Shown: positions 1,025-31,627 of the stretch, piece after piece
Layout: each line of letters starts with the position of its first letter
Position numbering within the stretch: position 1 is the first letter of the stretch
Assembly (NCBI GenBank): GCA_014381465.1
Contig: JACNLP010000017.1
Span: forward strand, 1 to 33,214
Length of the DNA: 33,214 nt
Reading direction: 5' to 3'
DNA from: Flavobacteriales bacterium
Lineage (GTDB): Bacteria; Bacteroidota; Bacteroidia; Flavobacteriales; BACL11
Made by a program: the position numbers and the translations under genes
The notes under the pieces: generated by a model
Databases searched by the model: none
What the model was told of the DNA's origin: nothing
Seen by the model: the letters and a program-made list of their open reading frames with translations, nothing else

Positions 1025-1030
1025 ATAATT

Positions 1031-1038: not shown

Positions 1039-1154
1039 TGCTAAATTAGTAATATAACTTATATTTTGTAATTTTTGTTAATTTGATATTATAATTCTTA
1101 CTAATAAAAGCATCTACTACCTAGTATTACTAAGTTTCCTTGTGTATCTAATTG

Positions 1155-1206
1155 TAATTGCGTGTTTACGCGCGTAAAGCACGGGTATTTATCTAGTAGG
1201 CAATTA
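1155..1206. repeat. Nested palindrome in the 344-nt gap between the HEPN/ATPase and AbiE modules
   Basis: The centre is a perfect 14-nt palindrome, TTTACGCGCGTAAA (1165-1178). It extends to CGTG at 1161-1164 and CACG at 1180-1183 with one unpaired G, and is enclosed by outer inverted arms TAATTGC (1155-1161) and GCAATTA (1200-1206). It is far more GC-rich than its surroundings. No T-run follows on either strand, so it is not a standard terminator. It could be a binding site, a replication or transfer site, or an element boundary. Elsewhere in the gap 1034-1377 I see only a short AT-rich hairpin (1354-1372) and no coding region. Confidence 0.6.
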
Positions 1207-1377
1207 AAAATACTAATTTATTTACTAGTAATTTATTATTTTAAAACACAATTAATTATATTTTATAAAATATGCTCTTGCTCATTTTTAGGCCGAATAA
1301 CCACTGCTAAAGTAGTATGATTTCCATTCAGTTTTTTTTTAAGTTTTGGCTCTATAATTTGCGGGAAATTATTTCGA

Positions 1378-3041: not shown

Positions 3042-3058
3042 GATTTGTAAAATATTTG

Positions 3059-3066
3059 CAAATATA
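3059..3066 (-). promoter_or_regulatory. -7 promoter box TATATTTG upstream of the AbiE-like operon
   Basis: On the minus strand TATATTTG followed by C matches TAnnTTTG. It lies 17 nt upstream of the antitoxin ATG and supports the shorter start. Confidence 0.45.
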
Positions 3067-3107
3067 TACAATTGTCTTGTTTTTTGGTTAATAAACTGGA
3101 CAATTTA

Positions 3108-4331
3108 TTAGTCATCAGTTCCGATAACCGCCTCTAAAGCACTATCAGTTTCTCTATTCATGAAGCTTTGCTGATAGTTTATAGTAGTTGTAATGTCGCT
3201 ATGTCTATAAAGTTTCTGTAGCATCTGTACTGGAATCTTATCTCCTGAAATGATTCCAAAAGAATGCCGTGCAATATGACAACTTAAAGTTTTAGTGATT
3301 CCTGCTTTTTTAGCAATTTTTTTCAACCATTTATTGTATTTGCTTTTAGCTGAAGTTAGTTTCCTGTAAATATCCTTATTGTCAGTTATATCAGCTTTAT
3401 TAAGTTCTGGCAATACAAAGGTGTCTAATTTATTTTTTCTAACCTTATACAGGTTTATAATGCGTTCAGCCTTAGATGTAATCTTAACTGAGCCTACTTT
3501 ATTGTTTTTTCCCATTTTATAATAGAGTCTACCATCATTTAAATCGCTCCATTTAATTCTTAACACATCTGATATTCTTGCGCCTGCAAGATAAAATGAT
3601 AGTAGAAATGAATTTCTGGCATTCCACTGAGTTGTTCCTTCTTCTAATTCACAATCCTCTAACAGTTTTATTTCATCAAGATTTAATCCAATTTTTTGGC
3701 TGTCAGGAAACTTTATCCTTACTCCATTTTCTCCAAAAGGGTAGAGGTTAGCATCAGCTATTCCTTCTCTAATGGCTCTATTGTAAAGTGTTCTTACTAA
3801 AATAAGGTGATTGACAGCAGTTCTCTCAGCTAACTTTACCTTAGTAAGAAGGTAAGTTTTGTATTTTTTAATATTAGTTACTGTGAGTTTATCAAATGTA
3901 GCATTTTCTCCAAAAAAGGATAGAAGGTGTCTTATTCTGGATTTTTCAGAGCTAACTCGAGTATATTTTTCTAATGCAATAAGTTCATTGTAAAATTCAT
4001 CACACATAGCTTTAATAGTGTAATTCCTTATGACTTTATCAAACAATCTTGCTTTTACTTCTTCAATGTCAAATGATTTTTTCTTTTCTTGTATTTGGAT
4101 AAGATAGACTTCAACCAAATTTATTTTATGAGTAATGAAGTTATTTATTCTAACTGAGTTTTCATAAGATTTTCTAACCCTATTATTTTTGGCATCCCAA
4201 TATTTTGGGTCAATATCAATTCCTAAAGTAACATATCGAGCATTCCTATTTACGGTAATTCTAATTTCAATAGGAATTTTCCCAGATTTTTTTACTTTTG
4301 CTTTTCTTGTAATTGCTTTTACATACCCCAT
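3108..4331 (-). CDS. Tyrosine recombinase (integrase) of the genomic island
   Basis: The protein is about 407 residues, the usual size for Bacteroidota tyrosine integrases. The N-terminus is an arm-binding-like region (KIPIEIRITVNRNARYVTLG) and the middle is a SAM-like core-binding region. The C-terminal catalytic domain shows the box I arginine in GARISDVLRIKW (about R252), HIARHS (H352, R355), the later histidine in YRHSDI (H377) and the nucleophile in TTINYQ (Y386). All key residues appear intact. It lies about 145 nt from a tRNA 3' fragment and reads inward, as expected for an enzyme that integrated this island. An ATG 13 codons upstream (4370) is an alternative start; I prefer MGYVKAITRK. 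Confidence 0.92.
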   Translation of the reverse strand: MGYVKAITRKAKVKKSGKIPIEIRITVNRNARYVTLGIDIDPKYWDAKNNRVRKSYENSVRINNFITHKINLVEVYLIQIQEKKKSFDIEEVKARLFDKVIRNYTIKAMCDEFYNELIALEKYTRVSSEKSRIRHLLSFFGENATFDKLTVTNIKKYKTYLLTKVKLAERTAVNHLILVRTLYNRAIREGIADANLYPFGENGVRIKFPDSQKIGLNLDEIKLLEDCELEEGTTQWNARNSFLLSFYLAGARISDVLRIKWSDLNDGRLYYKMGKNNKVGSVKITSKAERIINLYKVRKNKLDTFVLPELNKADITDNKDIYRKLTSAKSKYNKWLKKIAKKAGITKTLSCHIARHSFGIISGDKIPVQMLQKLYRHSDITTTINYQQSFMNRETDSALEAVIGTDD

Positions 4332-4413
4332 TTTATTCTTGTTTAAAAAAGTCAAACAATAGTACAACATTTTGCGTTTAAAACCACTTAAATACGATTA
4401 AATGCAATTTCAG

Positions 4414-16359: not shown

Positions 16360-16444
16360 GGAGAGATGGCAGAGTGGTCGAATGCACTGGTCTTGAAAAC
16401 CAGCGTACAGCAATGTACCGGGGGTTCGAATCCCTCTCTCTCCG
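16360..16444 (+). tRNA. tRNA-Ser (UGA)
   Basis: The 85-nt cloverleaf is complete: acceptor GGAGAGA pairs with TCTCTCC (16437-16443), and a D arm with TGGTCGAA is present. The anticodon stem is CTGGT/ACCAG with loop CTTGAAA (anticodon TGA). A long variable arm (CGTACAGCAATGTACCG) and T loop TTCGAAT complete it. The class II variable arm and the anticodon agree on serine. CCA is not encoded (GCA follows). Confidence 0.97.
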
Positions 16445-16449
16445 CAAAT

Positions 16450-16582: not shown

Positions 16583-18139
16583 ATGAAATCTCCAAGGCAA
16601 AGGTTAATTAATATGATGTATTTGGTGTTGTTAGCATTATTAGCACTCAATATTCAAGTTGATTTTATTGATGCATTTTTTGATTTAAGTACATCTATTG
16701 AACATACGGTTGAAAAGTTAGATAAAGAGAAATCACAAAGAATTCGTTCTATTCAGGAGGTATATAGTATTGATTCTCTCACTTATAGTAACTCTTTTTT
16801 AAAATCTTCTAAGGCAATTACAATAGCAAGCAATGCTACCAAATCTATTGAGGAATTGCAAAGACTTCTTATTTCAAAAACTGGTGGCTATAATCAGTAT
16901 GGTTATCCAAAAAATTCTATTGATACAAAAATTCCTGATTTTGTGCTTTTACAAAAAAGTGGAGCAACCGATTTGAAAAATCTTTTATTTAGCACTAAAA
17001 AAGAAATGTTGCTATTACTTGAGAAAGACTATCGTTATTTATTAGATAGTATCTATGCTACATCTGATTATATAGTGAATTCTCGTGGGATAAAACTTAG
17101 ATGGGAAGAATATCATTTTAACAATTTGGCTTTAGGTGGTTCTTTAGCAATTTTAAGTGGATTTAAAAAAGATGTGAAAATGATGGAGTCAATTATTCTA
17201 AACCATTATCAGAATGAAATATTTGGAAGGCTTACATCTTTTATTGCTCCTGATATTATTGGTGATTCTGCTAAAATTGAATTGGGTTTAGCAAATAATA
17301 AGTCCTATAAGATAGGAGATAAAATAAGGATTCGTTTACAGATCCCTAATCGGAATAAATTGGATAGTGCTGAAATATTTTTGCTTAATCAATACAATAA
17401 AAAGGTGGAGGATGTAAAAATCAATAAACAACAAAATGAGTTGTTTTATACTGCAAAAGATGCTGGAAATTATAAGGTTATTGCAAATTTGATTTATAAA
17501 AACAAGAAGAATATCAAAACAATTAGTAGCAAATTTAATATTGTAAGCAAGGATAATATTTCTTATATTACTATTGATAATATCATAAAATCTAAGAATT
17601 TTAATATTCTGTTTTTGGGGGTAAACAATAATATTTCAATTAAGCATCCATTGTATGATTTGTCAGAATTAAATATTACCACAAGCAATGGGAGTATTAA
17701 AAAAGATGGGGTAGAATATAATTTGATGCCAAGTAGAACTGGTTTTTCTTTTGTAAGAGTGTATCATAAAGATAAAAAACTTGCCGAAAGAAAATTTTTA
17801 GTGATGAATTTGCCTGATCCTACAGCAGTTATTAATAATTCTACCCTTAGCGAAACCTCATTAAAACTATTTAAAATACAAAGCGGAATTACGCTTAAAA
17901 TTGCTGATTCTGATTTGCAGAATGCTTACCAAATAAAAAGTTTTAAATTACAAAGATATGATATAAAAGGAAATCGTATTTTTGAAGGTGAAAACATATC
18001 TGCTTTTTTCTCAGGAGATGTGTTAAATCAAGTAAGAAGTGCAAAGGTTGGAGATAGTTATATTTTTAATCAAATATTAGTGAAAAGTAATGATGGGAGA
18101 AGTAGAATTATCCCTTCTTTAGTGCTAGAAGTAAAATGA
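16583..18139 (+). CDS. GldM/PorM-family protein (T9SS or gliding component paralogue)
   Basis: The N-terminus KSPRQRLINMMYLVLLALLALN is the hallmark of GldM/PorM: a short basic segment then one transmembrane helix (about 10-27), with the rest in the periplasm. At 518 residues it matches GldM length. In T9SS, GldM pairs with GldL to form the proton-driven rotary motor and reaches to GldK/GldN. None of those partners is encoded here; instead this gene heads an operon with an SprB-type adhesin and an SprF protein. It may be the counterpart of SprC in Flavobacterium, or a GldM paralogue dedicated to this adhesin; I cannot decide without alignment. It overlaps the next gene by 4 nt (ATGA). Confidence 0.8.
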   Translation: MKSPRQRLINMMYLVLLALLALNIQVDFIDAFFDLSTSIEHTVEKLDKEKSQRIRSIQEVYSIDSLTYSNSFLKSSKAITIASNATKSIEELQRLLISKTGGYNQYGYPKNSIDTKIPDFVLLQKSGATDLKNLLFSTKKEMLLLLEKDYRYLLDSIYATSDYIVNSRGIKLRWEEYHFNNLALGGSLAILSGFKKDVKMMESIILNHYQNEIFGRLTSFIAPDIIGDSAKIELGLANNKSYKIGDKIRIRLQIPNRNKLDSAEIFLLNQYNKKVEDVKINKQQNELFYTAKDAGNYKVIANLIYKNKKNIKTISSKFNIVSKDNISYITIDNIIKSKNFNILFLGVNNNISIKHPLYDLSELNITTSNGSIKKDGVEYNLMPSRTGFSFVRVYHKDKKLAERKFLVMNLPDPTAVINNSTLSETSLKLFKIQSGITLKIADSDLQNAYQIKSFKLQRYDIKGNRIFEGENISAFFSGDVLNQVRSAKVGDSYIFNQILVKSNDGRSRIIPSLVLEVK

Positions 18140-20211
18140 AAAAAGTAATTATATTTATAGGTATTGTTTTAGCGACATTTTTATTGTCAGCTCAAGAAAA
18201 ACATATTAGTGGATTCTATAATAATAATCTCACTTTTTATCCTGATACCACTTACATTATTGATTATCACACTAGAATAGGGAGTGATGCAACTTTAAAA
18301 ATCCTTGCTTCTACAAAAGTGCTTTTTGCCAGTGGTGCTTCACTTGTAATTAATGGTAATTTAGACATTGTTGGCAAGCCAAATAAAATGGTAATCATGA
18401 AAAGTAAAGATATGGATTTTCAAGGTATTGGTTTACTTCTTAGTGGCTATAAAGGAACTTATATAAATATTGAATTTTGCAAAATGACGGATTTACTTAT
18501 TCCTCTTACTTTTTCTGATGGATGGTATAGAGAAAGCGTTATAATTCAAAATAATATTTTTACGAATATCTCGGCTCAACCTGGAGTGAAAATAGGTAGT
18601 TTGAGTCAGATTTATTCAGGAGCATCATGTGTTTTTGATTTTTCACAAAATAATTTTACTAATAATAATGCAACTATTTACATTGAACCACTTGAAGATG
18701 ATGTAATGCAATTGAATTTTAGTAACAACTTATTAAGCTCTAATGTGCTGATTGGGAAGGATATTTCTAACCCAATGAACGCGACTTTTAGTGGGTATTT
18801 TGATCAAAGAGATAGAATGAATATAATTTCTTTTATTGATAATACTATTGTAAATAATGTAATGCTTTCAGGTGTTAGAGATAATGATGTTCATCAGCTT
18901 AATATTGGTATTAGTGGTTCGGGAGAATCCTTTGAGATTAGTCGGAATTTTTTAGGTGAAAAATCAAATTCGGATGCTTCCTTAATTCATTTTTTTCAAA
19001 ATGATAAATTACCTCTTATACTACTTACTAATTTACTTGATACACCATCAGAAAAAACACATGCTCATGTTTGGAAAGTACGATTTAAAACTACTGAAAA
19101 TTGGACTGATATGTTGAATTATTGGCAATTTCCAAATGTTAATTCTAATGAAATTTCTTTTGAGTTATATTATAATAGAGAGGTAAGTATCCCGCCCAAT
19201 TTTACTATTCCATTTAAGTATTATAATAATCAGAAAAATGAAATTTCAGTAATTGAATTTACACCTTATAATGTGAGTTATACTTCTAATGTTTTAAGTT
19301 TTCAATTACAGAAAACATCCAAATTAAAAAATATTGATAATGGGGCTTTTATTTTCCCTATTGCTACTGATTCTGATGGTTTTAATTCTCCAGAACTTAC
19401 TTTAGGAAATCTGCAAAAGGTTATTTTGTTTGAGCATGGTTTACTTGATTCTTATCAGCAAAAAGAAGAAGAAAAAAAGAAAGTAATAAACCCAGATAAG
19501 CCTCAAGTAGTAGAATCTAAAAAAGTAAAGAAAAATAAAGAAATTTCAATTGGGTTTTTGCTTGGGGCTTCTTTGTATTCTGGTGATTTGAACTCAAGTT
19601 TAAGTCAAAATAATCATTCTTATTTTGGTATGTCAGTAAATCAGCAGTTATCAGATGAGATGTCTTTAAGATTAGAAATAGCATCAACAAGAATTAGTGG
19701 TAATTCAGATGATTTTAAGAACTTTTCTTTTTCATCTGAAATAGCAGAATTTAATTTGTTAGCCACTTACAAATTAAATCAATTTTCATTTTTTAATATT
19801 AGTCCTTTTATATTTTTGGGAGCATCTTATATTCATCATCAGCCAATGAGTAATTACAATAATTTTACCTATGACCTGCAAACATTATCTACAGAAGGGC
19901 AAGAAGAACCTTATGCATTAAATTTGTTTGCTATTCCTGTAGGGTTTGGGTTTCAAAGTAGAATTTCTAAGAAATTGACAATTGGTATTCAAGCTCGTTT
20001 TAGAAAAGTTTTTTCTGATTATTTGGATGATGTAAGTGGGGCTTATGCCAATTATGATGACATTTTAAGTAATAGTGGGGAAGTTGCAGCATATTTTTCT
20101 GATCCTTCAAGGGCAGCTTATGATTATCAAAAAAATGAAACAAGAGGAAATCCTTTTGATAAGGACACTTATTCTACTATACTAATAAGTATAAGCAAAA
20201 CAATAAAATGA
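18136..20211 (+). CDS. Beta-helix plus outer-membrane beta-barrel protein
   Basis: The 691-residue product has a signal sequence (KKVIIFIGIVLATFLLSAQ). Residues of about 25-280 have the repeating N/G-rich short strands of a right-handed beta-helix (NNIFTNIS, NNFTNNNATIYI, DNTIVNNVML). A charged linker near 455-485 (QQKEEEKKKV...VVESKKVKKNK) follows. The C-terminal ~200 residues (IGFLLGASLYSGDLN, LRLEIAS, FNLLATYKLNQFSF, VGFGFQSRISKKLTIGIQARFRKVF) look like an outer-membrane barrel of the DUF6089 type. It overlaps both neighbours by ATGA, between the GldM-like gene and the adhesin. It may correspond in position to SprD. Its function is unknown; a role in passing or anchoring the adhesin at the outer membrane is inference. 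Confidence 0.68.
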   Translation: MKKVIIFIGIVLATFLLSAQEKHISGFYNNNLTFYPDTTYIIDYHTRIGSDATLKILASTKVLFASGASLVINGNLDIVGKPNKMVIMKSKDMDFQGIGLLLSGYKGTYINIEFCKMTDLLIPLTFSDGWYRESVIIQNNIFTNISAQPGVKIGSLSQIYSGASCVFDFSQNNFTNNNATIYIEPLEDDVMQLNFSNNLLSSNVLIGKDISNPMNATFSGYFDQRDRMNIISFIDNTIVNNVMLSGVRDNDVHQLNIGISGSGESFEISRNFLGEKSNSDASLIHFFQNDKLPLILLTNLLDTPSEKTHAHVWKVRFKTTENWTDMLNYWQFPNVNSNEISFELYYNREVSIPPNFTIPFKYYNNQKNEISVIEFTPYNVSYTSNVLSFQLQKTSKLKNIDNGAFIFPIATDSDGFNSPELTLGNLQKVILFEHGLLDSYQQKEEEKKKVINPDKPQVVESKKVKKNKEISIGFLLGASLYSGDLNSSLSQNNHSYFGMSVNQQLSDEMSLRLEIASTRISGNSDDFKNFSFSSEIAEFNLLATYKLNQFSFFNISPFIFLGASYIHHQPMSNYNNFTYDLQTLSTEGQEEPYALNLFAIPVGFGFQSRISKKLTIGIQARFRKVFSDYLDDVSGAYANYDDILSNSGEVAAYFSDPSRAAYDYQKNETRGNPFDKDTYSTILISISKTIK

Positions 20212-23200
20212 AAAGATTAATCCTAATTATATTATTGCTTTGTATTTGGAGAATTTCTTTTTCTCAATGTACTCCTTATCAAGTTTTTGTTACAGGAATG
20301 GATGTGTCTTGCAATGGCTATAATGATGGGAGTATTTTTATTGATTCTGTTGGTGGAACTCCTCCTTATCAGTATTTTTGGCAAGGACCAAGTAGTTTTA
20401 ATTCTAATAATGGAAATATCTCATCTTTGTTTCCAGGCACTTATCAACTTACAGTAGTAGATTCTAATAATTGTCAATCAATTTCTACAATTGTAGTTAT
20501 AAATGAGCCAAACTTTAATATAAATTTAAACTCAACAAATATAAGTTGTAATGGACATAATGATGGAAGTATATCTGTAAATATAAATGGAGGAATTTCA
20601 CCTTTTAATTATAATTGGAATCCTGCAAATACCAATTCATCTACTATAAACAGCTTACCAATAGGAACTTTTAATGTAATAGTTACAGATGCAAATGGAT
20701 GTGTTAAAAATGATTCAGTAGAACTCACCCAACCAGATTCACTCCTTATAGCTCTTGATTTCTCAATTGATGTAAGTTGTAATGGAGCAAGTGATGGAGA
20801 TATTAAAATTAGTCCAATTGGAGGCGCTCCTCCATATCAGTATTTTTGGGTAGGGCCAAACAATTATGTGAATCCTAATAATACAATGAGGATTAGTTTT
20901 CTATTTGCTGGAACTTATACGGTAACTATTACCGATCAAAATAATTGTCAGAATAGTTTGAATGTAAATATTTCTGAGCCACCTGCTCTTTCTCTATCCT
21001 CAACTATTCAAAATATTAGTTGTTTTGGCAATCAAGATGGGAATATAAACATTAATGCAAATGGAGGAACACCTCCTTATTCCTATTTGTGGAATAATGG
21101 AGATACACTTACTTTTATTGATAGTTTGTTTCAAGGGAATTATTCTGTAGAGATTACTGATAATAATAATTGTCAGTTTCAGCAACAATTTCAAATTACC
21201 CAGCCAAATCCTTTGTCAGCTGCCTCTTTGGTTTCTAGTGTTTCATGCAATGGAGATAATAGCGGAGCGATAAATTTGACAACAACTGGAGGGACTTCAC
21301 CCTATTTTTATAATTGGGTTAATGGTGCAACTACAGAGGATATTTCATCTTTAAATACAGGAAACTATACAGTAATTATTGCTGATGCAAATTCTTGTAT
21401 TATTACTGATTCGTTTTTTGTTTTGGAACCACCACCACTTGTTTTTTCTGTTGATAGTATTTCGGATGTAAATTGTTTTGGACAAAATAATGGATTTGTG
21501 CAAGTTTCTTCTGTTGGAGGAACTTTGCCTTATTCTTACTCCTGGTCAGATACAACATTAAATGATTCAATGAGAAATAATCTTTTTTCAGGAACTTATA
21601 CTTCTTATTTACAAGATAATAATGGCTGTACAGATAGTTTGCTTCTCACTATAAATCAAGCAGCTGAGATATTGATAAATGCTAGTATTTTTCCACATCT
21701 TTGTAATAATGATAGTAGTGCAGGTATCTTAATAAATACAACTTCAGGAGGAATAGGGAGTTTATCTTTTAACTGGACAAATGGCACAACAAATACTCAG
21801 TTAAATAATTTGTTTGAGGATTCATTATCTGTAGTAGTTTCCGATTCTGTGAATTGTAGTAAGCAATTTGATTTTCTGCTGCCACAACCACAACAAATAA
21901 GCATAAATTTTAATGCATCCTCTGTTTCTTGTAACGGCTTTTCAGATGGCATGATTACTACTATAGTATCTGGAGGAGTTGGGATGTATCAATATTTATG
22001 GTCCACTAATGATACCACTCCTGTAATTTCTAATCTTGTTCAAGGGAGTTATCTTTTAAGTATTACCGATAGTAATAATTGCTTTTTTTCTGATAGTGTA
22101 ATAGTAAGTTCCCCTTCTGTATTGCTTTCGGTTTTTTCAACAAATAATTCAGTGAGTTGTAATGGTATAGCTGATGGTGTTTTAGGTATTAATACAACTG
22201 GCGGAACGCCTCCTTATCTTTACGATTGGTCAAATGGAAGTAGTGGAAATATGCAAGATTCTTTAGTTGCAGGAAATTATATAGTAACTACTACTGATGC
22301 TGAAAATTGTATTACTACAAATTCTGCTAATATTACAGAACCTAATCAGATAAGCACTCTTGTGCAAACAATTGATGTAGCTTGTTATGGAGGAAGTAAT
22401 GGTGAAATTCAACTGGGTATAAGTGGTGGAACTCCTCCATTTACTCATAATTGGTCTAATGGCGATAGTGCTGAAGATATTATTGTTTCTGCTGGCGTAT
22501 ATATTGATTCAATAACGGATAATAATGGTTGTAAAACTATTGTAGTTGATAGTGTTTCCCAGCCACAAATAATAAATGTATTGCCTCAAATAACTAATGT
22601 AAGTTGTTTTGGAAATAATGATGGAGATATTAATTTAGTTGTAAATGGTGGTGTTTCACCTTTTACATTTAATTGGGCTAGCGGGCAAACAACAAATAAT
22701 ATAGACAGTTTGATAGCCGGTATGTATATTGTTCAGCTTACTGATTTTAATAATTGTAGCGTTCTAGATACTTTTGAGCTGACTGAGCCATTTTCTGCAA
22801 TTTCACTTTCTTCAATATTAACCAATACTTCTTGTTATGGTTCTTCTGATGGAGAAATAAATATTTCTGTAATTGGAGGGCTTGCTCCTTATCAGTATTT
22901 ATGGAGCAATAATAGTATTACTGAGGATATTTCAAACCTATTAGCAGGAAATTATTCTGTTACGATTTCTGATAGTAATGGATGTACAGAAATTCAATCG
23001 TTTGTTATTTCTCAACCAGATTCTATTGATGTAATTGTAAGTACAAATAATGTAAGTTGTAATGGAGGAAATGATGGGGCTGCTACTACAAATGTAAATG
23101 GTGGTTATTCTCCATACCAATACAATTGGTCCAATGGAGGTGTGTTAAATCAAACTACGACTCTTGTTTCTGGAAATCATTCAGTAATTGTTACTGATTC

Positions 23201-24860
23201 AAATAATTGTAGCAAATCGACATCTTTTATTATATATGAACCCACAATTTTATCGGTAAGTATATCTACTTCTAACATTTCCTGTTTTGCTGCAAATGAT
23301 GGTGTTTTAACAGCAGCAGTTTCTGGAGGTACAACTCCATATACAGTTAGTTGGTCTAATGGAGAAAACTCCTTAACTGCAGATAGTTTAATTGATGGAT
23401 TATATTCTGTAAATATTTTAGATAGTAATGGTTGTAGTGTTGTAGGCTTTGGAATAATACAAGAGCCAGATGAATTACTATATTCCTCTGTAGTTACGGA
23501 TGTTAAATGCTTTGCAGGAAATGATGGGATGATTGATTTATCAGTAAGTGGAGGTTCGCCACCTCTTAGTTTTTTATGGTCTAATCTTTCTACTGTACAA
23601 GATTTAAATTCTGTTCCAGCAGGCAGCTATTCAGTAATAGTTACTGATAATAATAATTGTCAAATAATAATTACTGATACCATAAATGAGCCAACTGCTC
23701 CAATCTCAATATCTTCAATAATAAAAGATGTAGATTGCTTTGGAGCAAATAACGGAATGATTGATTTGACAATAAATGGGGGGATATCTCCTTATACTTT
23801 TATTTGGTCTAATGGATTTAATTCTGAGGATATTTCTTCTCTTTCTCCGTCTTATTACTCAGTAGTAGTTTTAGATGCAAATAATTGTTCTGAGAATTAT
23901 GCAGAAACAATTGGCTCAGTTGCAGAGATTGCTATAACACCTACTATTAAAGATGAGAGTTGTCCTGGCTCAAATGATGGAGAAATTACAATTCAAATCA
24001 GTGGAGGGATAAGCCCTTATTCGATTTTTTGGATAAATGGAGATACAACAAATCAACTCTCTAATTTAAGTGCGAATTTATATAATGTGAGTATTAGCGA
24101 TTCGGTAAATTGTTCTTCCACTAAAAATATTGAAGTAAAGGCAGGACAATCTATTCTGTTGAATTCTCAAATTCAGGATTTGAAATGCTTTGGTGATTCA
24201 TCAGGAAGTATCTCTATAAATATACTAGGAGGTGTTTCTCCTTATGATATTATGTGGGATGATGGAGACACTTCTATTTTTAGGACAGGTTTACTTAAGG
24301 GACAATATACTGTTTATGTTACGGATTCTGCTGGTTGTGAGTCGGAGGTTGTTTTTAATATTGATCAGCCACAGCCATTGGATATTAGTATTTATGGCGA
24401 TAACGCTTCTTGTACCGGAATTAATGATGGAAATGTTTATACTGATGTTTCTGGCGGAACATCTCCGTATTTTTATTTGTGGAATAATGGAACTAATGCA
24501 GTTGATTTATTATCTGTTATTCCCGCCACTTATAATGTAGAAATTACCGATAGTAATCTATGTAAAATAAAAGCAAGTTTTCAAGTATTGATTGATGAGG
24601 ATTGTGTAAATATTTCTACTGCTTTTACGCCAAATAATGATGGAGTAAATGATTTTTGGGTAATTAAAAATATAGAAAATTTCCAAAATGTTCAAGTTTC
24701 AATTTTTGATGCAAATGGTTTTGTGTATTTTTCATCTTCTAATTATGATAATAGCTGGGATGGGCAATATAGAGGAAAAAATATAAAGTCAGGAACATAT
24801 TATTTTTATGTAAAAATAGAAACTGAAACATTTACAGGCTCAATTACAATTGTAAGATGA
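20208..24860 (+). CDS. SprB-repeat surface adhesin with T9SS type B tail
   Basis: The protein has 1550 residues: a signal sequence (MKRLILIILLLCIWRISFSQ), then 19 repeats of roughly 70-80 residues, each opening with a motif like VSCNGxNDGxI and continuing GGTPPYxYxW, SL..GxY.VTITDxNNC. This is the SprB repeat of gliding-motility adhesins. The C-terminus (CVNISTAFTPNNDGVNDFW to the end, about 90 residues) is the gliding-motility-associated type B sorting domain used by T9SS. It is much shorter than SprB of Flavobacterium johnsoniae (over 6000 residues). It probably acts as a cell-surface adhesin, moved if the cell glides. The SprF protein directly downstream (ATGA overlap) is the expected export partner. 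Confidence 0.93.
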   Translation: MKRLILIILLLCIWRISFSQCTPYQVFVTGMDVSCNGYNDGSIFIDSVGGTPPYQYFWQGPSSFNSNNGNISSLFPGTYQLTVVDSNNCQSISTIVVINEPNFNINLNSTNISCNGHNDGSISVNINGGISPFNYNWNPANTNSSTINSLPIGTFNVIVTDANGCVKNDSVELTQPDSLLIALDFSIDVSCNGASDGDIKISPIGGAPPYQYFWVGPNNYVNPNNTMRISFLFAGTYTVTITDQNNCQNSLNVNISEPPALSLSSTIQNISCFGNQDGNININANGGTPPYSYLWNNGDTLTFIDSLFQGNYSVEITDNNNCQFQQQFQITQPNPLSAASLVSSVSCNGDNSGAINLTTTGGTSPYFYNWVNGATTEDISSLNTGNYTVIIADANSCIITDSFFVLEPPPLVFSVDSISDVNCFGQNNGFVQVSSVGGTLPYSYSWSDTTLNDSMRNNLFSGTYTSYLQDNNGCTDSLLLTINQAAEILINASIFPHLCNNDSSAGILINTTSGGIGSLSFNWTNGTTNTQLNNLFEDSLSVVVSDSVNCSKQFDFLLPQPQQISINFNASSVSCNGFSDGMITTIVSGGVGMYQYLWSTNDTTPVISNLVQGSYLLSITDSNNCFFSDSVIVSSPSVLLSVFSTNNSVSCNGIADGVLGINTTGGTPPYLYDWSNGSSGNMQDSLVAGNYIVTTTDAENCITTNSANITEPNQISTLVQTIDVACYGGSNGEIQLGISGGTPPFTHNWSNGDSAEDIIVSAGVYIDSITDNNGCKTIVVDSVSQPQIINVLPQITNVSCFGNNDGDINLVVNGGVSPFTFNWASGQTTNNIDSLIAGMYIVQLTDFNNCSVLDTFELTEPFSAISLSSILTNTSCYGSSDGEINISVIGGLAPYQYLWSNNSITEDISNLLAGNYSVTISDSNGCTEIQSFVISQPDSIDVIVSTNNVSCNGGNDGAATTNVNGGYSPYQYNWSNGGVLNQTTTLVSGNHSVIVTDSNNCSKSTSFIIYEPTILSVSISTSNISCFAANDGVLTAAVSGGTTPYTVSWSNGENSLTADSLIDGLYSVNILDSNGCSVVGFGIIQEPDELLYSSVVTDVKCFAGNDGMIDLSVSGGSPPLSFLWSNLSTVQDLNSVPAGSYSVIVTDNNNCQIIITDTINEPTAPISISSIIKDVDCFGANNGMIDLTINGGISPYTFIWSNGFNSEDISSLSPSYYSVVVLDANNCSENYAETIGSVAEIAITPTIKDESCPGSNDGEITIQISGGISPYSIFWINGDTTNQLSNLSANLYNVSISDSVNCSSTKNIEVKAGQSILLNSQIQDLKCFGDSSGSISINILGGVSPYDIMWDDGDTSIFRTGLLKGQYTVYVTDSAGCESEVVFNIDQPQPLDISIYGDNASCTGINDGNVYTDVSGGTSPYFYLWNNGTNAVDLLSVIPATYNVEITDSNLCKIKASFQVLIDEDCVNISTAFTPNNDGVNDFWVIKNIENFQNVQVSIFDANGFVYFSSSNYDNSWDGQYRGKNIKSGTYYFYVKIETETFTGSITIVR
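20298..24590 (+). repeat. 19 coding repeats of the SprB adhesin
   Basis: The repeat unit averages about 228 nt (76 residues). Conserved points are Cys at the start and Cys at the end of each unit, NDG, GG(T/I)xPY and a Trp. The seventh unit (FPHLCNNDSSAG) is the most divergent. Units differ at many positions, so the array is old rather than a recent expansion. Confidence 0.88.
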
Positions 24861-25720
24861 TAAGAAAAATAAAAATACTAATTTTATTTCTTGGATTTGT
24901 CTTTTCATCTTTTTCACAAACTGAATTCTCGGGGCTGCAATATATTTTTAATCCGAGTATAATTAATCCTGCGGCTATTACTACTAAAAACATGAGTTTG
25001 CAAATGTATTATAGAAATCAACTCTCTGGAATTGAGCAAGCTCCGCAAACTCAGTTTATTTCTTTTAAAGCAAGTTTAGAACCAACAACTTCTATTTTAG
25101 TAGGATTGCACAATACTACCGCAGGGCCATCATCAATCGGTGGAATTCAGTTAGGATTTGCTCATATTATCAATCTCAAAAAGGTTAAATTATCTTTTGG
25201 CTTACAAGGAGAATTAAGAAGAATGATGTTAGATGAAACAAAGTTTGTATTAGAACAAGAAAATGATGATGCAATAAGCTATAATCTGCAAAAAAGAATA
25301 AATGCACAATCATCAGCTGGAGTTTATTTGCTGGCCAATAAGTGGAGTATTGGTTTTTCAACTTTTAATCTAATAAACAATAAAGATGTTTATACAAAAA
25401 TTATAAATAAAGAAAAATATCTTAGTTTTAATATTTATGCCGACTATTCTTATTCTTGGAAAAATAAAATAAAATTTATACAATCAATAATGTTTGAAAA
25501 AGATGATATCAAACCATCAAAGATTGATATAAATTTTATTACAAAATTTAATGATAGAATAAATCTTGGAGTAACTTACAGTACATTGAAATCAATAGCT
25601 GTTATATTAGGAATTCAGAGTAATCAATTAGAAATTAATTATATACATACAATCCCTAATTCTTCAACTTCAAATTTCTTAAAAGGCACTAATGAATTAC
25701 TATTAATTTATAAGTTTTAA
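24857..25720 (+). CDS. PorP/SprF-family T9SS outer-membrane protein
   Basis: The 287-residue protein has a signal sequence (IKILILFLGFVFSSFSQ) and the PorP/SprF N-terminal hallmark LQYIFNPSIINPAA followed by MYYRNQLSGIEQAPQTQ. Beta-strand patterns of an outer-membrane barrel continue to the end. SprF-type proteins are needed for export and surface attachment of type B cargo such as SprB, and are usually encoded next to their cargo, exactly as here. It overlaps the adhesin gene by 4 nt and is the last gene of the operon. A 5-bp A/T-rich hairpin with T-run just after the stop could be a weak terminator. Confidence 0.92.
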   Translation: MIRKIKILILFLGFVFSSFSQTEFSGLQYIFNPSIINPAAITTKNMSLQMYYRNQLSGIEQAPQTQFISFKASLEPTTSILVGLHNTTAGPSSIGGIQLGFAHIINLKKVKLSFGLQGELRRMMLDETKFVLEQENDDAISYNLQKRINAQSSAGVYLLANKWSIGFSTFNLINNKDVYTKIINKEKYLSFNIYADYSYSWKNKIKFIQSIMFEKDDIKPSKIDINFITKFNDRINLGVTYSTLKSIAVILGIQSNQLEINYIHTIPNSSTSNFLKGTNELLLIYKF

Positions 25721-25776: not shown

Positions 25777-26487
25777 ATGACCAATAAAGCAGAAATACCT
25801 AATTGTGAAGATTGTAAAACAAGAGGTAAATCTATATTTTGTGATTTAAAAAGTGATGAATTAGCCGATCTTTCATACAACAAAGGATGTAGTTCGTATA
25901 AAAAAGGACAAGTTATTTTTTATGAAGGAAGACGCCCAACAGGGCTTTATTGCATAAATAAAGGAAAAGTAAAAATTGCAAAATTGGGTGAGGAAGGTAA
26001 AGAACAAATTGTTCGCCTTGCTAGGGAAGGAGACATACTTGGTTATAGATCGTTAATTGGTGGAGATGCTTATTCTGCTTCTGCTGAAACGCTTGAAGAA
26101 ACAAGTGTTTGTTTTATTCCAAAAGAAGCAATTTTCAATTTGATTCGTCAAAGCCCAGAATTTTCAATAAAGATTATTGAATTAGTTTCTAAAGATTTGA
26201 AATCAGCAGAAAATAAAGTTACTGATTTAGCACAGAAACATGTGCGTGAAAGAGTAGCGGAAGCTTTGCTTATGTTAAAGGAAACTTATGGATTGGAAGA
26301 TGATGAGCAAACTTTAGGTGTAGCACTTACTCGTGAGGTTTTAGCGAACATTGTAGGTACGGCTACTGAAACTGTAATCCGGTTATTATCTGAGTTAAAA
26401 AAAGATGAAATAATTGCTTTGGAGGGCAGGAAAATTAAAATACTCAATCATAAACAACTTATTCGTACTGCAAGTATTTACGACTAA
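25777..26487 (+). CDS. Crp/Fnr-family transcription regulator 1
   Basis: The 236-residue regulator starts with a cysteine cluster CEDCKTRGKSIFC (C10, C13, C22). A cyclic-nucleotide-type sensor fold follows (KKGQVIFYEGRRPTGLYCIN, GKVKIAKLG, REGDILGYRSLIGG). Then come a long dimer helix and a DNA-binding helix-turn-helix near 183-212 (LTREVLANIVGTATETVIRLL). The cysteine cluster suggests iron-sulphur or redox sensing as in FNR, although spacing differs from the Escherichia coli protein. It sits beside a second regulator of the same type and near a NorCB-like operon, so control of respiratory or nitric-oxide genes is plausible. The ligand is not known. Confidence 0.9.
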   Translation: MTNKAEIPNCEDCKTRGKSIFCDLKSDELADLSYNKGCSSYKKGQVIFYEGRRPTGLYCINKGKVKIAKLGEEGKEQIVRLAREGDILGYRSLIGGDAYSASAETLEETSVCFIPKEAIFNLIRQSPEFSIKIIELVSKDLKSAENKVTDLAQKHVRERVAEALLMLKETYGLEDDEQTLGVALTREVLANIVGTATETVIRLLSELKKDEIIALEGRKIKILNHKQLIRTASIYD

Positions 26488-26504
26488 AATCACTTTTCAA
26501 TTTT

Positions 26505-26518
26505 ATGATATAAGTCAT
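26505..26518. promoter_or_regulatory. Candidate Crp/Fnr operator upstream of regulator 2
   Basis: ATGATATAAGTCAT has inverted ATGA/TCAT halves separated by 6 nt, the layout of Crp/Fnr sites. It lies about 40 nt upstream of the start expected from the GAAATTTG box at 26541-26548. That box departs from TAnnTTTG at its first base. Evidence is one site only. Confidence 0.3.
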
Positions 26519-26533
26519 TGTTTTATCTTTTTA

Positions 26534-26566
26534 CTTAAGTGAAATTTGCAACATAATTTACTTAAG
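26534..26566. repeat. Inverted repeat over the promoter of regulator 2
   Basis: CTTAAGTGAAATT (26534-26546) and AATTTACTTAAG (26555-26566) are near-perfect inverted arms around an 8-nt loop, overlapping the weak -7 box and ending 6 nt before the ATG. It could be an operator or a leader hairpin. Confidence 0.5.
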
Positions 26567-26572
26567 AAAAAT

Positions 26573-27271
26573 ATGACACGAAATAATATTCCCAATTGTA
26601 CAAAATGTAAAAACATGAAAACATCTGTTTTTTCGGGCTGTTTAATTGATGAAAAAGTAAACATCTCAAATCTAAAAAAGTTCAAAAACTTTAAAAAAGG
26701 AGAATCTATTTTTAATGAAGGAGAAAATGCACAGGCAGTTTTTTACATTTATGATGGGAAAGTTAAAACACTAAAAAAGGATAAAACAGGAAAAGAACAT
26801 ATTATTTCTTTTGCAAAAAATGGAAATTTATTAGGACTGCATGCAATAATTAACGATACAAAATTTAATGCTACTGCAATTACTCTTGAAGATACTAGCG
26901 TTTGTTGTATCTCCAAAGATGATTTTTTAAATTTGATAAAAGAAGATAAAAATGCTTTTATGCGTGTAATGAAACTTTTGTGCTATGATGCTGATACAGT
27001 AGAGAAAAGAGTGCTGAGTATAAAACATCTATCGGTCACCCAACGATTGGTAGAGGGACTTTTGTTACTTCAACAAACTTTTGGGAAGGACAAAAATAAC
27101 TTTATAAATATATCTTTAAAAGATATTGAGCTTTCAGGATTAACAAGTGCTAATAAAATAGTAACTCGCAACTTAGTGAAAAAAATGAAAGAACAACAAT
27201 TAATAGATGTTGTTGCTGATAAAATAAGTATTTTAAACACCAATAAGCTAAAAGGTATTTTAAGAAATTAA
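26573..27271 (+). CDS. Crp/Fnr-family transcription regulator 2 (divergent paralogue)
   Basis: The 232-residue protein is a paralogue of the preceding regulator: CTKCKNMKTSVFSGC at the start (C9, C12, C23), sensor fold KKGESIFNEGENAQAVFYIYDGKVK, and GNLLGLHAIIND. The DNA-binding part is less canonical (LKDIELSGLTSANKIVTRNL) than in regulator 1, so DNA specificity probably differs. The ATG at 26573 is preferred over an in-frame TTG at 26546, which lies inside the upstream inverted repeat. It is separated from regulator 1 by 85 nt holding two candidate regulatory sites, so it is probably transcribed separately. Confidence 0.87.
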   Translation: MTRNNIPNCTKCKNMKTSVFSGCLIDEKVNISNLKKFKNFKKGESIFNEGENAQAVFYIYDGKVKTLKKDKTGKEHIISFAKNGNLLGLHAIINDTKFNATAITLEDTSVCCISKDDFLNLIKEDKNAFMRVMKLLCYDADTVEKRVLSIKHLSVTQRLVEGLLLLQQTFGKDKNNFINISLKDIELSGLTSANKIVTRNLVKKMKEQQLIDVVADKISILNTNKLKGILRN

Positions 27272-27278
27272 TAATCCT

Positions 27279-27286
27279 TAATTTTG
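27279..27286 (+). promoter_or_regulatory. -7 promoter box TAATTTTG for nadAB
   Basis: TAATTTTGC matches TAnnTTTG and lies 23 nt upstream of the TTG start of nadA. TTTTGC here and GCAAAA at 27295-27300 form a short inverted repeat. Confidence 0.42.
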
Positions 27287-27309
27287 CACTTTATTGCAAA
27301 AAATCATTA

Positions 27310-28239
27310 TTGGACATCATAAATAAAATATCAAAGTTAAAGCAAGAAAAGAATGTGATAATTCTTGCTCATTATTATCAATTACCAGAGGTGCAAGATA
27401 TTGCCGATTTTGTAGGAGACAGCTTAGATTTATCACAAAAAGCAGTAAAAACAGATGCTGATATTATAGTATTTGCTGGTGTGCATTTTATGGCTGAAAC
27501 AGCAAAAATTCTTAATCCAAATAAAAAAGTATTAATACCTGATATGGATGCAGGATGTAGTTTAGCGGACTCTTGTCCGGCTGATAAATTAAGCGAATTT
27601 ATTGAGAAAAATCCTGGCCATAAGGTTATTTCATATATTAATTGTTCTGCAGAAGTAAAAGCAATTAGCGATATTATTTGCACTTCATCTAATGCTTTGC
27701 AAATAATTAAATCTATACCAAAAGATAAGCCAATTATTTTTGCTCCCGATAAGAATTTAGGCAGATATCTTGAGATTAAAAGTGGTAGAGAAATGCTAAA
27801 ATGGGATGGAACTTGCCTTGTTCATCAAGAATTTTCTGCTGATAAAATAAGGGAAATCAAACAAAAATATTCTGATGCAAAAGTTATTGCTCATCCTGAA
27901 TGTAGTTCGTATATGTTAGAGCATGCCGACTTTATTGGTTCTACTTCAGCACTATTAAAATTCAGTAAAACAGATATTTCTTCAACTTATATTGTTGCTA
28001 CCGAAACAGGGCTTATTTATCAGATGAAAAAAGAAAATCCTGAAAAAAAGTTTATTCCAGCCCCTGTTACAGGCAGTTGTGTTGCTTGCCAAGAATGCCC
28101 ATACATGAAAAAAAATACAGTTAAAAAAATATATGACTGTATAAGGAATGAAACCCCTGAGATTTTAATGGAAGAATCCTTAAGAGTTAAAGCATTCTCG
28201 GCTGTGGAAAATATGCTTAAATTTTCAGCAAAAAAATAA
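27310..28239 (+). CDS. nadA: Quinolinate synthase
   Basis: NadA condenses iminoaspartate with dihydroxyacetone phosphate to quinolinate, using a [4Fe-4S] cluster. The 309-residue protein has VIILAHYYQLPEVQD (16-30), GDSLDLS, MDAGCSLADSC (C83), AHPECSSYM (C198) and GSCVACQECPYM near the C-terminus, giving the three cluster cysteines. The start is TTG at 27310, giving MDIINKISKLKQEK, the usual short leader; no upstream in-frame ATG exists close by. It overlaps nadB by one base (TAATG), so the two enzymes, which hand on an unstable intermediate, are co-translated. Confidence 0.95.
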   Translation: MDIINKISKLKQEKNVIILAHYYQLPEVQDIADFVGDSLDLSQKAVKTDADIIVFAGVHFMAETAKILNPNKKVLIPDMDAGCSLADSCPADKLSEFIEKNPGHKVISYINCSAEVKAISDIICTSSNALQIIKSIPKDKPIIFAPDKNLGRYLEIKSGREMLKWDGTCLVHQEFSADKIREIKQKYSDAKVIAHPECSSYMLEHADFIGSTSALLKFSKTDISSTYIVATETGLIYQMKKENPEKKFIPAPVTGSCVACQECPYMKKNTVKKIYDCIRNETPEILMEESLRVKAFSAVENMLKFSAKK

Positions 28240-29792
28240 TGATTACAGATGTATTGATAGTTGGTTCTGGAATTGCAGGACTTAGCTATGCTTTAAAATT
28301 AGCCGAAAGAGCTCCTAATTTAAAAATTACCATTATTACAAAATTAGATGAGTCGGAAGCCAATACCAAATATGCACAAGGAGGAATAGCTGCAGTTACT
28401 AATTTAAAAAATGACTCTTTTGAAAAACACATAAACGATACACTAAAAGCTGGAGACGGGTTATGTGATAAACAAGTTGTAGAGCATGTAGTTAAAAATG
28501 CCCCTAAAAGAGTATCCGAACTTGCAAAATGGGGTGTTTGTTTTGATAAGAAAAATAAAAGTCAGTACGATTTAGGAAAGGAGGGAGGGCACTCTGAAAA
28601 CAGAATTATTCACCATAAAGATTTAACAGGACTACAAGTTCAAAATTCATTGTTAGAACGAATTCATGAAGCTCCAAACATTAATATTTTTACTCATTTT
28701 TTTGCTATTGATTTAATAACCGAACATCATTTAGGAAAAAATCTTGCTTATGGAGATAAGGATATTTCTTGTTACGGACTTTTTGCCTTGAATATCCATT
28801 CTGAAAAAATAGTAAAAATTTTAGCAAAAGTTACTTTGTTGGCAACAGGAGGGGCAGGGCAAGTGTATAAATACACTACTAATCCTGCAATTGCAACTGC
28901 TGATGGTATAGCAATGGCTTATAGGGCAAAAGCTACTATTAATAATATGGAGTTTATACAGTTTCACCCAACTGCCTTATACAACCTGGGAGAGAACCCA
29001 GCTTTTTTAATTTCGGAAGCTGTAAGAGGAAAAGGGGCTGTATTGAGAACAAAAAAGGGGAATCTTTTTATGCAGAAATATGATAAAAGAGAGTCTTTGG
29101 CTACTAGAGATATTGTTGCCAGATCAATTGATAGAGAGCTAAAAACAAGTGGAGATAATTTTGTTTTTCTGGACTGTAGTTCTATTTCAGATTTTGAAAC
29201 ACACTTCCCAAATATTTATAAAAAATGCTTATCTATAGGGATAAATGTTCCAGAACAGTGGATTCCTGTTGTGCCTGCAACTCATTATTTATGTGGAGGA
29301 ATTCAAACTGATATTTCTGGAAAAACTAACATTAATAATTTATATGCTTGTGGGGAGTGTGCTTGCACAGGATTGCATGGAGCTAATCGCTTAGCTTCCA
29401 ATTCGCTTTTAGAAGCATTGATTTTTTCTCATAATTGTGCTGAGGACACTTTTAAAATTATTGATAAATTAACTATTCCAAATAATATTCCTGATTGGGA
29501 TTCTAAAGGAGTTGTAAAAACCCAAGAACAGATTTTAATTCAGCATAATATTCAAGAAATTAGAAGTGTAATGACTGATTATGTAGGGATTATCCGTTCT
29601 GATTTCAGATTAAAAAGAGCTCTTAATCATATAAAAATAATTTATGAGGAAACAGAAATGTTGTATCAAAACAATGCTCTTTCATTATCGCTTTGCCAAC
29701 TAAGAAATTTATCGACAGCTGCTTATATCATTGTTCAACAATCATTGTTAAGAACAGAGAATAAAGGGACTTTTTTCAACCTCAACCTTTAG
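28239..29792 (+). CDS. nadB: L-aspartate oxidase
   Basis: NadB is a FAD enzyme that oxidises L-aspartate to iminoaspartate, the first step of NAD synthesis. The 517-residue protein has the FAD dinucleotide motif VGSGIAGLSYA (8-18) and TKYAQGGIAAV. It also has HHKDLTGLQVQ, FIQFHPTALYN and LATRDIVARSID, typical of the succinate dehydrogenase/fumarate reductase flavoprotein family. Near residue 370 is ACGECACTGLHGANRLASNS. The C-terminal helical domain is present, so the gene appears complete. It is the second gene of the nadAB operon. Confidence 0.95.
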   Translation: MITDVLIVGSGIAGLSYALKLAERAPNLKITIITKLDESEANTKYAQGGIAAVTNLKNDSFEKHINDTLKAGDGLCDKQVVEHVVKNAPKRVSELAKWGVCFDKKNKSQYDLGKEGGHSENRIIHHKDLTGLQVQNSLLERIHEAPNINIFTHFFAIDLITEHHLGKNLAYGDKDISCYGLFALNIHSEKIVKILAKVTLLATGGAGQVYKYTTNPAIATADGIAMAYRAKATINNMEFIQFHPTALYNLGENPAFLISEAVRGKGAVLRTKKGNLFMQKYDKRESLATRDIVARSIDRELKTSGDNFVFLDCSSISDFETHFPNIYKKCLSIGINVPEQWIPVVPATHYLCGGIQTDISGKTNINNLYACGECACTGLHGANRLASNSLLEALIFSHNCAEDTFKIIDKLTIPNNIPDWDSKGVVKTQEQILIQHNIQEIRSVMTDYVGIIRSDFRLKRALNHIKIIYEETEMLYQNNALSLSLCQLRNLSTAAYIIVQQSLLRTENKGTFFNLNL

Positions 29793-29810
29793 TTTTCTTT
29801 TCTGTTTAAT

Positions 29811-29818
29811 TATCTTTG
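29811..29818 (+). promoter_or_regulatory. -7 promoter box TATCTTTG for the NorCB-like operon
   Basis: TATCTTTGC fits the consensus and lies 22 nt before the ATG at 29841. No clear Crp/Fnr dyad is visible upstream in the short gap after nadB. Confidence 0.45.
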
Positions 29819-29840
29819 CATCTTTTTAAAAGAATTTAAC

Positions 29841-30260
29841 ATGAAGATGATATTGCCGATTAAAATATTACTTTTTATTATTCTAGCTTATTTTGTTTAT
29901 AGTTTTGCTATTTACAATCAAGTAATGCATACAGAAGTGGCAAGAAAATCTATATCTCCTTTAGCTGTTAAGGGAAAAGATGTTTTTCAGAAATTTAATT
30001 GTATTTCTTGTCATCAAATTTATGGTTTAGGTGGCTATATTGGTCCTGATTTAACAAATACAATATCAGAGAAAGGAGAGGCGTATGCAGAAGCGTTTCT
30101 AAGAAATGGAAGTTTAAGAATGCCTAATTTTAACCTGAATGATACTCAGGTGGAAGCTCTTATTGAAATGTTAAAAGCTGTAGATTCTTCAGGTTCATTT
30201 CCTGCAAAAGATTTTGATGTAAGCTGGTATGGAACAATTCAGAAAAAAGAAAAAGAATGA
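29841..30260 (+). CDS. NorC-like membrane-anchored cytochrome c
   Basis: The 139-residue protein has one N-terminal membrane anchor (about 6-25) and a single haem c domain: CISCH at 54-58, then the NorC-like stretch GLGGYIGPDLTN, and the distal methionine in LRMPNF (M94). This is the arrangement of NorC, which feeds electrons to NorB. It overlaps the next gene by ATGA, so the two form a complex-encoding pair. The electron donor role is inferred from family and linkage. A dedicated donor to a different terminal enzyme remains possible, because the partner has an altered active site. Confidence 0.82.
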   Translation: MKMILPIKILLFIILAYFVYSFAIYNQVMHTEVARKSISPLAVKGKDVFQKFNCISCHQIYGLGGYIGPDLTNTISEKGEAYAEAFLRNGSLRMPNFNLNDTQVEALIEMLKAVDSSGSFPAKDFDVSWYGTIQKKEKE

Positions 30261-31627
30261 GGAAATCAATAGGATTATCTTTTGTGTATTTGGCATTAGT
30301 ATCTCTTTTGGCAGCATTATTTTTTGGATGTATAGGGGCGTTTCAATATATCATGCCAGAACTTTTAAGGGATTCTTTTCCATTTTACAAGATAAGACCG
30401 CTTCATGTTTCCTTAATTGTTGCATGGATATTTCTAGCATCAGTTGGTGGAATCTACCATGCATTACCAAGGATATTGCAAAAACCTCTTTATAGTAACA
30501 AATTAGCTATTTGGCATTATTGGATATTTCTTATTACAGGAGTAGTAATAATTATTAGTTATCTTTTTGGCTATTTTGGAGGCAGAGAATATTGGGCGTT
30601 TTCACCTATTTTGGCTATCCCAATTATTATCTCCTGGTTTTTTTTGATAATCAATTTTTTTACTACTATAAAAGGATATAGGATAGAGCTTTGTGAAGAT
30701 AAAAATGGAACATCCAAACTTGTTTGGCCGGTTTATATTTGGATGTGGGCAACAGGGATAATCTTCTTTTTTCTCACTTTTATAGAGGCATACCTTTGGC
30801 TTATCCCTTATTTTAGAGAAAATATTATTGGAGAGCTTACTGTACAATGGAAAGCTTATGGCTCGCTTGTTGGTTCATGGAATATGCTTGTGTATGGTTT
30901 AGCTATTTATGTGATGGAAAAGACAAGTGACACCAGAATATCATCTATGCCGCTTACTTATAGTTTGTTTTTTCTTGGTTTTATTAATTTGCTTTTAGGA
31001 TGGTCGCATCATATTTATATTATACCTGCTGCAAAATGGATACGGCTATTGGGCTATGCTATAAGTATGACTGAGCTTATTGTTTTAGCCAAGATTATTT
31101 GGGATTGGAAAGGGATTCTAAAACAAGGCAAGAAACATATTCATTCTATTCCATATCGATTTTTACTTTCTTCTGATTTTTGGATAATAACTAATCTTAT
31201 TGTAGCGATTATTATTTCAATTCCGGCTATTAATATTTATACTCATGGTACTCATATTACTGTGGCTCATGCTATGGGAAGTACAATAGGAATTAACACC
31301 ATGATTCTGCTTGCATCTATTTTTTATATGGTCTCAGAAAACAGAAAAGAAGATTATAGTGAAACGGAATTAAAACTGATTTATAGGGGTTTCTGGCTTA
31401 CAAATATTTCATTAGCAATTTTCTGGACTACCCTTATTGCATCTGGAGTTGTAAAAAGCTATTATACTTTAGAAGATATGCCTTTTCAGCAAATAATGAA
31501 TTCTCTTCATTCTTACTTTATAGTTTTTGCAATTTCTGGTATGTCACTTTTAATAGGGATAGTGATGATTGTAATTCCTCTTCTTAGTAAGTTGTCAGCT
31601 AATCAATTAGCTGAAAATGAGCAGTAA
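30257..31627 (+). CDS. NorB-like haem-copper oxidase-family subunit with altered ligands
   Basis: This 456-residue protein has about 12 hydrophobic segments and the NorB/cbb3 subunit I layout. The low-spin haem ligand H50 is in RPLHVSLIVAW, the metal-site pair H251-H252 in LLGWSHHIY, and the high-spin haem ligand H338 in THGTHITVAHAMG. Two expected features are missing. NorB normally has H-x3-E (HLWVEG-type) in the sixth helix, but here the equivalent region reads YGSLVGSWNMLVYG, with no His or Glu. The second haem ligand of the usual H-x-H is Met (HAM, M340). It lies next to a NorC-like cytochrome, so nitric oxide reduction is the first guess, but the chemistry may differ. The C-terminus overlaps the convergent tryptophanase gene by 29 nt. 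Confidence 0.72.
   Translation: MRKSIGLSFVYLALVSLLAALFFGCIGAFQYIMPELLRDSFPFYKIRPLHVSLIVAWIFLASVGGIYHALPRILQKPLYSNKLAIWHYWIFLITGVVIIISYLFGYFGGREYWAFSPILAIPIIISWFFLIINFFTTIKGYRIELCEDKNGTSKLVWPVYIWMWATGIIFFFLTFIEAYLWLIPYFRENIIGELTVQWKAYGSLVGSWNMLVYGLAIYVMEKTSDTRISSMPLTYSLFFLGFINLLLGWSHHIYIIPAAKWIRLLGYAISMTELIVLAKIIWDWKGILKQGKKHIHSIPYRFLLSSDFWIITNLIVAIIISIPAINIYTHGTHITVAHAMGSTIGINTMILLASIFYMVSENRKEDYSETELKLIYRGFWLTNISLAIFWTTLIASGVVKSYYTLEDMPFQQIMNSLHSYFIVFAISGMSLLIGIVMIVIPLLSKLSANQLAENEQ

Follow-up and report, generated by a model that had tools for sequence, protein, structure and literature searches.

What does a GldM-type protein do at the head of an operon for a surface adhesin? In the type IX secretion system, GldM and PorM form the stalk of the GldLM/PorLM motor; in the canonical motor two copies of GldM are located inside a GldL pentamer, and the assembly is driven by the proton motive force. 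In this study, we analyzed a stretch of 33,214 nucleotides (hereafter the window) from a Flavobacteriales bacterium (contig JACNLP010000017.1 of assembly GCA_014381465.1). A previous, sequence-only reading had described an operon of four genes joined by three ATGA overlaps and lacking GldL, GldK, and GldN. The open reading frames and the 4-bp overlaps (at 18136, 20208, and 24857) were confirmed; they tie four genes of the same strand (16583-25720, +), and the window as a whole yielded no gldL, gldK, or gldN.

Genes of the operon and their housekeeping counterparts

The operon consists of the following genes:

16583..18139, + strand: gene 1, gldM', a divergent GldM/PorM paralogue of 518 aa
18136..20211, + strand: gene 2, a porG-like fusion of 691 aa
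20208..24860, + strand: gene 3, an SprB-type adhesin of 1550 aa
24857..25720, + strand: gene 4, a PorP/SprF-type carrier of 287 aa

A tRNA-Ser(TGA) gene (16360-16445, +) lies directly upstream, and no second copy of its 3' end was detected within the window. A single match to the Bacteroidota-type TAnnTTTG box was identified at 16558, upstream of the operon. The region right after the operon (25777-31627, +) starts with two Crp/Fnr-type regulators, followed by nadA/nadB-like genes (assigned by eye), and includes a NorC/NorB-like pair of cytochrome c and COX1-family genes. A small mobile island (284-4370, -), adjoining parA/parB-like genes (also assigned by eye), holds a tyrosine integrase (3108-4370; PF00589), an AbiEii toxin-type gene (1378-2319) with its DUF6088 partner (2316-3071), and a 249-aa gene without identification.

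Gene 1 matched the GldM profile TIGR03517 with 138.5 bits over profile positions 6-519, a score below the equivalog cut-off (180 bits), which marks it as a homologue not filed as a GldM equivalog. An N-terminal membrane helix and periplasmic domains D1-D4 were recognized by Pfam and Foldseek: GldM_1st (PF12081, 53.9 bits) and GldM_4th (PF12080, 34 bits) exceeded their cut-offs, GldM_3rd (PF21602, 24.4 bits) fell just below its cut-off of 25.2, and no Pfam model matched D2 separately. The helix region reads SPRQR..INMMYLVLLALLALN, and D1 carries the motif TGGYN[EQ][FY]GYPK. A profile built from canonical GldMs only was matched with 141 bits (E 1.2e-41) by residues 36-518, which exclude the membrane helix, and with 80.6 bits by residues 216-518; shuffled and reversed controls gave no match to this profile. 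The similarity is thus not limited to the membrane helix, an outcome that the first reading had named as a refutation. PDB sequence matches were to PorM/GldM only, the N-terminal part and D3-D4 being matched separately, and the top Foldseek PDB matches of a low-confidence fold model (mean pLDDT 60) were PorM (7cmg) and GldM (6ey4). The assignment of gene 1 as GldM-type was therefore upheld by profile, Pfam, sequence, and fold matches, and the protein is a true, full-length GldM homologue.

Gene 2 encodes a signal peptide, a beta-helix (residues ~20-300), a probable Ig-like domain (~310-425), a Lys/Glu-rich linker, and a PorG/DUF6089-type barrel (~470-691). Residues ~470-690 matched the PorG profile NF052316 (85.3 bits, under the equivalog cut-off of 130 bits) and the Pfam family DUF6089 (32.8 bits, above the cut-off of 23.2). 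The barrel is 33% identical over 189 aa to the PorG of the same genome (E 3e-20), with which it shares a DYLDD(V/I)S signature. In the model, residues 20-300 of the N-terminal part fold into a right-handed beta-helix (pLDDT 86-92 at best), and VIA-align gave Z-scores of 13-16 to tailspikes and polysaccharide lyases, matches to a generic fold that are uninformative on function. Foldseek alone gave no significant match with the fusion model, and the barrel was poorly modelled (pLDDT <30). The earlier description of gene 2 as a beta-helix followed by a barrel is therefore correct, the former by model and the latter by its PorG/DUF6089 matches; the PorG-like nature of the barrel, which that description missed, is the most informative part of the operon. 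Both ends of an even-stranded barrel are periplasmic, so the N-terminal beta-helix/Ig-like part should also be located in the periplasm.

Gene 3 contains 18 SprB repeats (PF13573), a CHU_C domain (72.6 bits), and a TIGR04131 match (67.3 bits), and its product is an SprB-type adhesin with a type B T9SS sorting domain (CTD). Gene 4, directly after this CHU_C adhesin gene, matched PorP_SprF (PF11751) with 154.8 bits; both genes thus agree with their earlier assignment as SprB/SprF-type. The gene 4 product ends at its last strand (..LLLIYKF) and has no cysteine in the whole protein.

The source bacterium possesses gliding-type machinery. A canonical porP-gldK-gldL-gldM-gldN cluster was identified on a separate contig (C83), so GldM' is not the only GldM of the genome, a check that the first reading had proposed. 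A canonical PorG is located on C4, six PorP/SprF paralogues were identified in the genome, and a partial GldJ, truncated where its contig stops (C51:80-685), scored 238 bits over positions 7-216. The PorP/SprF paralogues on C51 and C41 (L079:733-1722 and L080:3991-4938) have cysteines in their C-terminal tails (..TISCPSF and ..KHYCPRYL); the gene on C51 adjoins gldJ, and its product may be a track-linked carrier. In addition, a protein of 682 aa (G000:C63:28689-28988; L075:3202-5250, -) begins with a barrel that is weakly PorG-like (47.6 bits).

Distribution of GldM' and of additional GldM copies

In the phylogenetic tree the GldM' proteins form one clade, separated from every canonical GldM (SH-aLRT 100), with a long groundwater branch; one row counted as ungrouped is a duplicate of an SP95 sequence. 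A recent duplication of the bacterium's own GldM was considered as the origin of GldM' and rejected, as the own GldM falls among the sequences of its family, whereas GldM' lies outside them. Four GldM' sequences were found in three genomes from three families: that of the window, Flavobacteriales bacterium SP95 (PAYR01000011.1; copies a and b), and a groundwater Bacteroidetes genome (JACPUW010000044.1). Searches by protein or profile covered overlapping samples of 246 genomes of the order, 395 of the class, 52 of the bacterium's own family, and 395 of the phylum, as well as 10 + 3 further genomes; no members beyond the three genomes were detected in the order, class, phylum, and three-family samples. 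The motif TGGYN[EQ][FY]GYPK is present in the window GldM', SP95 copy b, and the groundwater GldM'. A scan of 84,980 species with the exact motif, which relatives without the motif would escape, returned the two other GldM' genomes and four unrelated Chitinophaga genes.

The PorG fusion is the next gene after GldM' in all three genomes, and the two other fusions align over their length with that of the window (36% and 24% identity). The SP95 operon reads gldM'-gldM'-porG'-adhesin-sprF (tandem copies at L074:3266-6404); its adhesin has 20 SprB repeats and is followed by PorP/SprF. In the second SP95 copy the PRQ motif before the membrane helix is missing, and the tandem copies look as if they worked as a heterodimer. 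The groundwater locus (L082:7973-10097) reads gldL'-gldM'-porG', followed by a sensor-kinase gene, and its GldL' (PF22827, 86.6 bits) retains the TMH2 glutamate (LTTEAVIFL). No adhesin or SprF was found beside the groundwater pair. An adhesin and SprF thus adjoin GldM'-PorG' in two genomes and an own GldL in one; the conserved core is GldM' plus the PorG fusion, and the cargo link is not universal. On these comparisons, the distinctive feature of the operon is a separate, deep GldM clade that is always paired with a downstream PorG fusion. The individual parts are known; their arrangement is a novel and rare variant (three genomes). The patchy distribution of the gldM'-porG' module suggests transfer or repeated loss. 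With regard to a mobile origin of the operon, the PorG fusion had no plasmid match, the GldM' motif was on no viral contig, and the base composition is not aberrant.

The sequence-only reading had assumed that GldM is normally encoded with GldL. We examined 20 neighbourhoods of GldMs in Bacteroidia genomes that were chosen for having several GldM copies and do not represent a census. This assumption fails for extra copies, since none of the 14 assessable loci provided a separate GldL for the extra GldM; two further loci end at contig ends. In some genomes gldKLMN is followed by gldM2-gldN2, and in others the extra gldM is solitary (loci L097-L100, which are gldKLMN clusters, and L104, L106, L107, L109-L111, and L113). 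Such extra GldMs are common, and the missing GldL is therefore not the surprising feature of the operon. They are canonical in sequence, retaining 34-42 of 43 conserved columns outside the membrane helix and 20-24 of 24 in the GldL-binding helix, and the neighbourhoods examined revealed no PorG-like gene next to them. It is possible that extra GldMs are exchangeable stalks on one GldL ring.

Mechanistic clues and alternative explanations

The fourth periplasmic domain, D4, is the part of PorM that meets PorN (GldN). Between three and seven of eight conserved D4 columns are kept in the GldM' proteins, more in SP95, and this partial conservation means that GldM' may still act on GldN. It has been shown in Flavobacterium johnsoniae that TMH2 of GldL binds the membrane helix of GldM (PMC8986121). 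This helix region has 24 strongly conserved GldM columns, of which 18 are retained in the window GldM', 17 in SP95 copy a, 10 in SP95 copy b, and 9 in the groundwater protein, while all GldM' proteins keep 17-21 of 43 conserved columns outside the helix. Fisher tests gave modest p-values (0.01 for the window protein and 0.04 for SP95 copy a, uncorrected; 0.02 for the window versus the groundwater protein). Retention is lowest (9/24) in the GldM' that has its own GldL' and best where no GldL gene adjoins. Retention of the helix in the window GldM', which has no adjacent GldL, is the pattern expected from docking on the housekeeping GldL. Conservation of the helix suggests that two copies of GldM' may be located inside a proton-driven GldL pentamer.

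PorG is essential for type IX secretion, and its role in the mechanism was called unknown until a 2025 report of a disulfide to the GldK/PorK track (PMC12635249); SprF and PorG are both held on the GldK track via disulfides of C-tail cysteines (PMC12635249). In the genome studied here, GldK retains the KGCF cysteine and the canonical PorG ends in TTKCNY, so that both carry the residues of the reported link. The C-tail cysteine is missing in all three PorG fusions (the tail is absent or cysteine-free) and in both SprFs. Gene 4 lacks the Cys-X-Cys of gliding-type SprF, which is CPC in F. johnsoniae. Cysteine-free PorP carriers are also encoded on C47 and C52 of the same genome, so that loss of the cysteine is only suggestive as a sign that no track disulfide is formed.

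The explanation that we tentatively prefer, and to which we give somewhat less than an even chance, is that the operon adds to the energy chain of type IX secretion/gliding a stalk/PorG branch that is dedicated to one cargo and driven by a shared GldL. GldM' would be located in the inner membrane, replacing or beside the housekeeping GldM, inside a GldL pentamer encoded elsewhere. Its periplasmic arm would carry proton-driven motion to the outer membrane by way of the PorG-like protein encoded with it, in which the periplasmic beta-helix probably receives this motion. The target of the branch would be the adhesin-SprF pair encoded alongside: the branch would help the adhesin to exit from the translocon and/or would move or retain it at the surface, and it would dispense with the cysteine link by which canonical SprF and PorG are held on the GldK track. 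The sequences establish the identities of the proteins, the operon, the conserved pairing of GldM' with PorG', the separate gldKLMN, and the missing C-tail cysteines; use of the shared GldL, contact between GldM' and the PorG fusion, and action on this adhesin are the steps we infer. A dedicated link from motor to adhesin, as proposed in the first reading, stays the preferred view. It is doubtful, if conceivable, that all of the following apply: GldM' partners directly with the PorG-beta-helix protein, the two bring the force of the shared GldL to the outer membrane while bypassing the GldK/GldN track, they serve one adhesin, and stalks are interchangeable on a common GldL ring.

The retained GldL-binding helix would also be expected if GldM' formed a heterodimer with the housekeeping GldM, or substituted for it in some motors, and still drove the GldKN track, the operon then tuning a shared machine. 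The partly retained D4 residues, more so in SP95, fit this arrangement, as does the finding that extra GldMs without GldL are common and in some cases adjoin a second GldN. However, the arm of GldM' is far more diverged than that of ordinary extra GldMs (17 of 43 columns versus 34-42), and GldM' is always paired with a PorG fusion, not with a second GldN; we therefore consider this arrangement unlikely, though worth serious attention. A static bridge between the inner and outer membranes, formed by GldM' and PorG' and anchoring a non-moving adhesin or organizing an export site with no transfer of energy, would be in line with a GldM that spans the periplasm, a carrier without a track-linking tail, and a beta-helix, a domain common as a binding scaffold. 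It appears improbable to us, since the groundwater GldL' retains the TMH2 glutamate, pointing to a working motor, and the window GldM' retains the motor helix. The rarity of the module, found in three genomes, could be taken as the mark of a relic or chance association, that is, a decaying gldM/porG pair travelling with an ordinary SprB/SprF cassette; yet no frame is interrupted in any of the three families, the order and overlaps of the genes are retained, neither the GldM' motif nor Cys165 of the fusion varies, and the four genes are translationally overlapped, which makes such an origin very improbable.

A natural operon of GldM and a PorG fusion minus the track-link cysteines suggests that a functional partnership between GldM and PorG is possible. 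Should several GldM variants use a common GldL ring, the stalks of the motor would be exchangeable, a question made general by the many extra GldMs without GldL in Bacteroidia.

Comparison with known systems

The gene order had been likened to sprC-sprD-sprB-sprF of F. johnsoniae. The F. johnsoniae sequences were located by an exact match to sprC primer 1294 (PMC9870892). SprC (483 aa) contains Ig-like domains and CHU_C and is by Pfam a type B CTD cargo, and SprD (1588 aa) has an N-terminal PorP_SprF barrel, which by Pfam makes it a PorP/SprF-family carrier. No similarity of either protein to genes 1 and 2 was detected by blastp. Homology of genes 1 and 2 to SprC and SprD was therefore rejected, and the resemblance holds for the sprB-sprF half and fails for the sprC-sprD half. 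SprC is reported to move on the gliding track (PMC12635249), which fits SprC as a surface cargo. As in F. johnsoniae sprB-sprF, an SprB-repeat adhesin is followed by a PorP/SprF carrier; however, F. johnsoniae SprB is far longer than the window adhesin, and its SprF ends in ..SNCPC.. whereas that of the window has no cysteine.

Unlike PorG (Fjoh_1692/PG0189), the gene 2 barrel sits behind a periplasmic beta-helix/Ig-like part of ~400 aa, and none of the three fusions has the C-tail cysteine. Like GldM/PorM, the window GldM' has a single N-terminal membrane helix bearing the PRQ..INMMYLVL motif, detectable D1, D3, and D4, and a full-length alignment; unlike them, its gene adjoins a PorG fusion and an adhesin, not GldL, GldK, or GldN, and the protein is 22% identical to the bacterium's own GldM. 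It shares the lack of a neighbouring GldL with orphan and tandem extra GldMs, but in contrast to these canonical copies it keeps 17 of the 43 conserved columns outside the helix.
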